Source of the DNA: Mrakia gelida
Taxonomy: Eukaryota > Basidiomycota > Tremellomycetes > Cystofilobasidiales > Mrakiaceae
NCBI GenBank assembly: GCA_024345305.1
Contig: BRON01000009.1
Span: 744,001 to 808,000 of the forward strand
Direction of reading: 5' to 3'
Length of the DNA stretch: 64,000 nt
The notes beneath the pieces are model-generated. The model ran no database searches and had not been told where the DNA came from. It saw only the letters and a program-made list of their open reading frames with translations. The translations under genes and the position numbers were made by a program. This document shows, piece by piece, positions 1-3,506 of this stretch. Each line of letters starts with the position of its first letter. Position 1 is the first letter of the stretch.

Positions 1-3506
<3,506 letters not shown>

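Follow-up and report, generated by a model that had tools for sequence, protein, structure and literature searches.

A predicted single-nucleotide exon keeps the reading frame of a Dbp2/p68 RNA helicase gene in Mrakia gelida

Single-nucleotide exons test how the splicing machinery defines an exon that is too small to be touched. In a 64,000-nucleotide stretch of the Mrakia gelida genome (the window), the gene for a Dbp2/p68 RNA helicase raises the question of how a reading frame is carried across two exons with incompatible phases, and whether one A at position 256 (A256) is an exon of its own. Most of this gene lies on the minus strand at window positions 1-2835, and the remainder is located in the neighbouring stretch of the same contig. 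GT-AG splicing of the minus strand gives 14 exons and a 516-residue protein that runs from MSNLGAG to GGGGGGNRW and a stop codon (Table 1). This 14-exon, 516-residue model ending in -NRW is obtained only when the single A at 256 is treated as an exon. The introns of the gene measure 62-140 nt, with the exception of intron 6 (1043 nt). Pfam places a DEAD and a Helicase_C domain in the predicted protein, and the best match among solved structures is yeast Dbp2 (PDB ID: 8ark, 707 bits). With this domain pair and with Dbp2 as its nearest solved helicase, the protein falls in the DBP2/DDX5 (p68) subfamily. A second gene copy or haplotype was considered as an internal control and set aside: when 1,201 bases of its DNA were searched against the 34.9-Mb genome, the only full match was the gene itself, and two short partial matches lay elsewhere. 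An Rfam search of window positions 1-3000 (E up to 0.1) gave no match. Further very small exons of the gene have 19 coding nt (window 1300-1318) and, in the neighbouring stretch (L009), 13, 26, and 27 coding nt (exons 11, 13, and 14).

Table 1 Features of the Dbp2 gene in the window, in window coordinates
Feature	Position	Strand	Description
Exon 1	2776..2835	-	60 nt, carries the start codon of this model
Exon 2	2594..2683	-	90 nt
Exon 3	2283..2491	-	209 nt
Exon 4	1912..2203	-	292 nt
Exon 5	1381..1824	-	444 nt
Exon 6	1300..1318	-	19 nt, VASRGL and first base of Asp
Intron 6	257..1299	-	1043 nt; donor GTAAGT, acceptor TTTTTCAG; taken as the long conserved Dbp2 intron
Exon 7 (predicted)	256..256	-	One A, the middle base of the RGLD Asp codon
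Intron 7	163..255	-	93 nt; donor GTACGT, branch site CTGAC, acceptor CTTCCAG
Exon 8	97..162	-	66 nt, last base of Asp and 21 residues
Exon 9, start	1..11	-	Exons 9-14 run on outside the window (G000 C9, locus L009)
Intron 7 branch-site consensus CTGAC	194..198	-	A at 195
Intron 6 candidate weak branch site TTGAC	266..270	-	A at 267, 10 nt to intron end
Intron 6 second TTGAC	A at 342	-	85 nt to intron end
AG-free tract	257..376	-	80% pyrimidine, ends at the A256 acceptor
Rival 1-nt exon candidate C	572..572	-	TAG/C/GTTCGT, would give RGLA

The need for an additional base arises from the two splice sites that flank the region. Exon 6 ends in CTCG/GTAAGT, a phase-1 donor whose first intron base is 1299, and exon 8 starts with TGTCAAG after a CTTCCAG acceptor (last intron base 163) and requires two preceding bases. 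Direct joining of these exons is out of frame. The minus-strand A at 256, found in the context TTTTTCAG/A/GTACGT, completes the codon G-A-T (Asp), and the junction then reads ATDVASRGLDVKDIKYV. With A256 included, the frame stays open across six more introns to the terminal GGNRW and stop codon. If A256 is left out, the protein continues as RGLVSRISS and terminates at codon 426, with four exon junctions 3' of the stop; if intron 6 is retained, a stop is reached nine residues past RGL. These readings agree with the preliminary description, which had reported CAG, A, and GTACGT on the minus strand at 256, a phase-1 donor at 1299, an acceptor at 163 in need of a phase-2 partner, and an A that restores the Asp of RGLD-VK and without which the downstream frame is lost. 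A256 is needed both for the frame and for a conserved residue, and its AG and GT flanks stand in the organism's own splice-site context, with a weak donor side and a non-consensus branch site upstream. The single-nucleotide exon and its frame-keeping role are well supported, and, as judged from genomic sequence, A256 is very probably a true and probably constitutive exon of Dbp2. That the base is absent from the mRNA, with the frame regained through ribosomal frameshifting or RNA editing, is extremely improbable: the frame gap itself is all that speaks for such recovery, and the DNA already holds a complete splicing solution.

The conservation of the junction was evaluated in 151 Dbp2-like proteins, made up of the best 120 of 7,982 scored and 31 new ones among the best 120 of 7,985 scored in a second search, in which only the portion preceding the junction served as query, to catch broken gene models. 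RGLD-V is read across in 114 of the 151: the RGLD-VK junction, which the preliminary description had called invariant, is conserved. The Asp of RGLD is also present in alignments with S. cerevisiae Dbp2 and human DDX17, and three related DBP2 proteins from other species (contigs of 1.5-1.7 kb) read RGLDVKD. Gene models often break at this position: 37 proteins are not continuous there, 8 of the 120 from the plain search and 29 of the 31 from the search for broken models. A Gly follows RGL in 29 of these 37, one of which is a chimera (P0147). The other 28 continue with K (6), M (12), T (8), R (1), or A (1) and look like intron read-throughs; at the protein level, 26 of them fit read-through of G/GTAAG, G/GTATG, or G/GTACN. 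As seen from the proteins, this phase-1 donor signature at RGL-G is shared by mushrooms, relatives of smuts, and the Naganishia-like and Apiotrichum-like sequences P0135-P0138. Six rows insert a stretch and then return to the common sequence, and in every one VKD is preceded by D, H, or Y, the residues predicted for AG/AY, a phase-1 acceptor. Read-through proteins were used to derive the intron phase because a literature search did not yield the phase of the yeast or human DBP2 intron. A scan of genome contigs for the DNA of these relatives found two bacterial helicases only, and viral contigs searched with the same query gave no match.

Several annotated proteins differ from both patterns in length. 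Two relatives, P0008 (Saitozyma, one residue short at the junction) and P0014 (Dioszegia, six residues short), fit neither the read-through nor the rejoining pattern, and P0004 (Kwoniella newhampshirensis), counted among the 114 continuous rows, then lacks three residues. Skipped microexons of 3, 18, and 9 nt, respectively, would explain these gaps, and the 9-nt case could alternatively reflect a miscalled acceptor. At this junction, microexons of 3 and 18 nt may be present in related tremellomycetes. In four JGI proteins from contigs of 1.7-2.4 kb (P0143, P0144, P0155, and P0162), joined Dbp2 exons run into the conserved intron; these are possibly transcripts that retain it.

The intron in question has been described before: the DBP2/p68 intron is reported to keep its position and length between yeasts and higher eukaryotes, to be inefficiently spliced, and possibly to be self-regulated (PMC4695336). 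Intron 6 appears to occupy the same site, with the difference that in M. gelida another intron starts just one base later. When compared with a long phase-1 intron at RGL-G/AY, a site derived from proteins, the M. gelida gene has the expected donor, and it has the expected acceptor only if the A is exonic. Since 28 of the 37 non-continuous rows are RGL-G read-throughs, the phase-1 donor at RGL-G looks ancestral, and both boundaries of the ancestral Dbp2 intron probably lay in phase 1 (G/AY). Given this phase on both sides, an unchanged donor, and a CAG/A that matches the old acceptor, we infer, as the parsimonious origin, a gain of the 93-nt intron 7 between A and T, a single base into the old exon. 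An alternative in which the A was lost at the old acceptor and then rescued is less likely. An introner origin of intron 7 was rejected because this intron has no second copy in the genome; in a search that skips very common words, introns 6 and 7 match only themselves. An exon with an ancestral state that can be deduced from relatives provides a concrete route of origin, namely intron gain one base inside an exon.

To score the splice sites, matrices were trained on 132 introns of 45-150 nt that were found ab initio in 264 kb of the same genome, with Dbp2 left out. This set was used because a stricter one, with 8 introns, was too small, and an iterative one grew from 97 to 283 introns and drifted to noise; both were discarded. 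Relative to the 132 training introns, the donor at 1299 lies at percentile 52, the acceptor at 256 at 36, the donor at 255 at 16, and the acceptor at 162 at 97. A256 thus has an average 3' splice site on its upstream side and a usable, rather weak donor that falls in the weakest fifth of the training set. Intron 7 is of ordinary size, with a training median of 99 nt in a set limited to 45-150 nt, and its CTGAC lies 32 nt from the intron end; in introns 1-5 and 8, CTGAC or CTAAC is located 20-37 nt from the end. The last 60 nt of intron 6 contain no CTRAC or CTRAT, and the only candidates are TTGAC at 10 and 85 nt. These non-consensus branch sites may lead to slow removal of intron 6. The longest AG-free tract in the region (120 nt, 80% pyrimidine; 61 AGs compared) ends exactly at the acceptor of A256. 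A tract of at least 120 nt arose somewhere in 6.7% of 2,000 shuffles of the stretch, which is not rare; its coincidence with the acceptor AG of A256 is rare. As a separate observation, TCGAA(A/C/T) at most 14 nt upstream of CTRAC was found 49 times against about 20 expected in the introns of L015-L034 and the window; the motif occurs in 11 of the 132 training introns and in three of the eight Dbp2 introns, including intron 7.

How often such a site arises by chance was estimated after the site had been seen. In 528,000 strand-bases (both strands of the 264 kb used for training, this window included), four AG-N-GT sites score at least as high as A256: two with C, one with G, and one with A, which is A256 itself. 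Among 2,000 dinucleotide shuffles of the 1.1-kb stretch, an equal-scoring site was present in 18 for any base and in 8 for A, and an A accompanied by a downstream intron of 60-150 nt was present in 1. These counts bear on the possibility of an assembly error, according to which one A is missing at the donor (CTCGA/GT) or at the acceptor (CAG/ATGTC), the gene has a single ordinary 1.1-kb intron, and A256 is there by chance. This reading turns on the boundary sequences as assembled, CTCGGTAAGT and CCAGTGTCAAG. A one-base slip at either boundary would explain the frame equally well, and at the acceptor it would restore the plain phase-1 intron deduced for the relatives. Such an error would nevertheless have to strike one of two positions, and luck would have to supply a well-formed A exon together with a downstream intron of normal size (the 1 in 2,000 shuffles). 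Moreover, no other frame repair is needed in the rest of the 1.55-kb coding sequence, and the end of a neighbouring long open reading frame at 12847 resembles an ordinary intron rather than a frameshift. We therefore consider an assembly error improbable.

Enumeration of splicing models brought up two further ways to restore the frame. The first is a single intron that opens 10 bases later, at a weak donor (first intron base 1289, AG/GTTCTC), and gives RGLGKYSVKD in frame. It is the best of only two stop-free in-frame single-intron models that keep exon 6, the other giving RGLGNVKD; six more such models all omit exon 6. Use of this site would mean that a poor donor is chosen over GTAAGT ten bases upstream, that three residues are added, and that the conserved Asp is lost, and it is judged highly unlikely. 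The second has C at 572 as the one-nucleotide exon, either in place of A256 or as an alternative form, and yields RGLA-VKD. Its splice-site sum is the highest of 115 in-frame internal-exon models (18.1, compared with 15.7 for A256, which ranks second), and it is one of only four such sites in the 528,000 strand-bases. In contrast to A256, it would convert the conserved Asp to Ala, and its nearest YTRAY is 140 nt upstream as compared with 10 nt; neither site has CTRAC or CTRAT within 60 nt. An additional AG is present 21 nt upstream of C572, and the coordinates imply a 409-nt downstream intron. Because the A alone restores the conserved Asp, A256 is preferred, and an exonic C572 is very improbable. 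Two of the four best one-nucleotide-exon-like sites in the 528,000 strand-bases, A256 and C572, fall in this one 1.1-kb stretch.

With A256 as the exon, the following arrangement can be proposed. An old, long, phase-1 Dbp2 intron, positioned between the G and AT of the Asp codon, would still end in CAG/A, and an ordinary 93-nt intron would begin one base past it, leaving only the A between two introns. The short intron 7, with its consensus branch site and strong acceptor, would be removed first by intron definition, and its removal would leave a normal acceptor, CAG/ATGTC. The long intron 6, with its poor branch site, would follow at a slower pace, in keeping with what is reported for other Dbp2 genes. 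This short-first order would avoid crowding of two splicing machineries on one base. A jump from 1299 to 163 would yield a frameshifted message, and the order of intron removal could therefore matter. If the short intron leaves first, a productive mRNA would result; if the donor at 1299 instead splices straight to 163, the stronger acceptor, the A would be lost and an early stop would arise upstream of four exon junctions. That this order serves as a frameshift switch by which Dbp2 could set its own level through the one-base exon is a tentative and rather doubtful suggestion, and regulation by skipping of A256, raised in the preliminary description, is possible as far as the anatomy of the locus goes. 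The S. pombe Dbp2 intron is described as inefficiently spliced and as lowering expression, and self-regulation has been suggested for S. cerevisiae DBP2 (PMC4695336). In Mrakia, the genes reported to retain introns solely at 20 degrees include ones with helicase activity; the passage does not name Dbp2 (PMC5100859).

Two introns in contact, most easily pictured as removed consecutively, are also a feature of stwintrons as described (PMC5639578). In a stwintron, the internal intron splits a splice signal and no exonic base lies between (PMC5639578), whereas introns 6 and 7 both have a complete donor and acceptor with one exonic base between them; a stwintron is ruled out on this account.

The preliminary description had called one-nucleotide exons almost unknown and had pointed to plant APC11 as the example. 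The example holds and the list was too short, as VPS55 in plants and CYP621A in Fusarium are nuclear one-base exons as well. In Arabidopsis APC11, the single-nucleotide exon A333 was established by cDNA and mutant constructs (PMC4674806). It resembles A256 in being a frame-essential single A between two GT-AG introns, the second of them short, and it lay inside what was annotated as one 422-nt intron, just as the Dbp2 base lies within an apparent single intron; the difference is that between a plant gene with cDNA and mutant constructs and an exon predicted here from genomic sequence. The 1-nt microexon of plant VPS55 was confirmed by RT-PCR, and forms with and without it are reported from early land plants (PMC8831610). 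As in Dbp2, the one-base exon is missing from annotations, and the flanking splice sites of VPS55 are described as well conserved; VPS55 differs in being a plant gene in which the form without the exon arises by intron retention (PMC8831610). Closest in organism is Fusarium CYP621A, a fungal nuclear gene with a single-nucleotide exon confirmed by reads in two species, in which one base likewise reconciles a phase-1 donor with a phase-2 acceptor in a conserved motif (PMC12940212). There the base is a G in PKG, and its authors, as reported, propose base loss and rescue by a cryptic exon, whereas the relatives of the M. gelida gene point to intron gain (PMC12940212). Among organelles, a one-base exon is described between mitochondrial group II introns (PMC12308204), and another case is placozoan cox1 (PMC5436844). 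The literature searched showed no Dbp2 single-nucleotide exon and no relevant precedent for a Dbp2 or tremellomycete microexon. As predicted here, A256 is an addition to the nuclear single-nucleotide exons found in the literature consulted (APC11, VPS55, and CYP621A), and it is located in a conserved helicase with a regulated intron, in a gene known for intron-based control.

The preliminary description had also proposed red yeasts as the comparison group, which the Dbp2 tree contradicts. This tree has 48 rows, the window and 47 hand-picked from the best 120 of 7,982 scored proteins, with class and order labels that we took from the genus names. The window is placed within the Tremellomycetes (100/97), where the remaining 17 rows, three of them JGI proteins, form its sister group (98/90), and it lies far from Rhodotorula and Microbotryum. 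In the Dbp2 exons of the window, Gly is encoded by GGA in 23 of 27 codons and Arg by CGA in 19 of 25. In a Nup188-like open reading frame, GGA accounts for 50 of 85 Gly codons and CGA for 27 of 84 Arg codons, behind AGG with 28. Mrakia psychrophila is reported to favour GGA and CGA and to have a genome of 27.8 Mb with 53.8% GC (PMC5100859). Tree and codon use would by themselves suggest a Cystofilobasidiales-like yeast, perhaps close to Mrakia. The Nup188-like gene, named from its matches, is located on the plus strand at window positions 9152-12847, and its open reading frame seems to end in an ordinary intron that begins at 12845. Finally, a second DEAD-box helicase match is present on the minus strand at 59203-59739 and contains two internal stops, as expected from introns that are read through.
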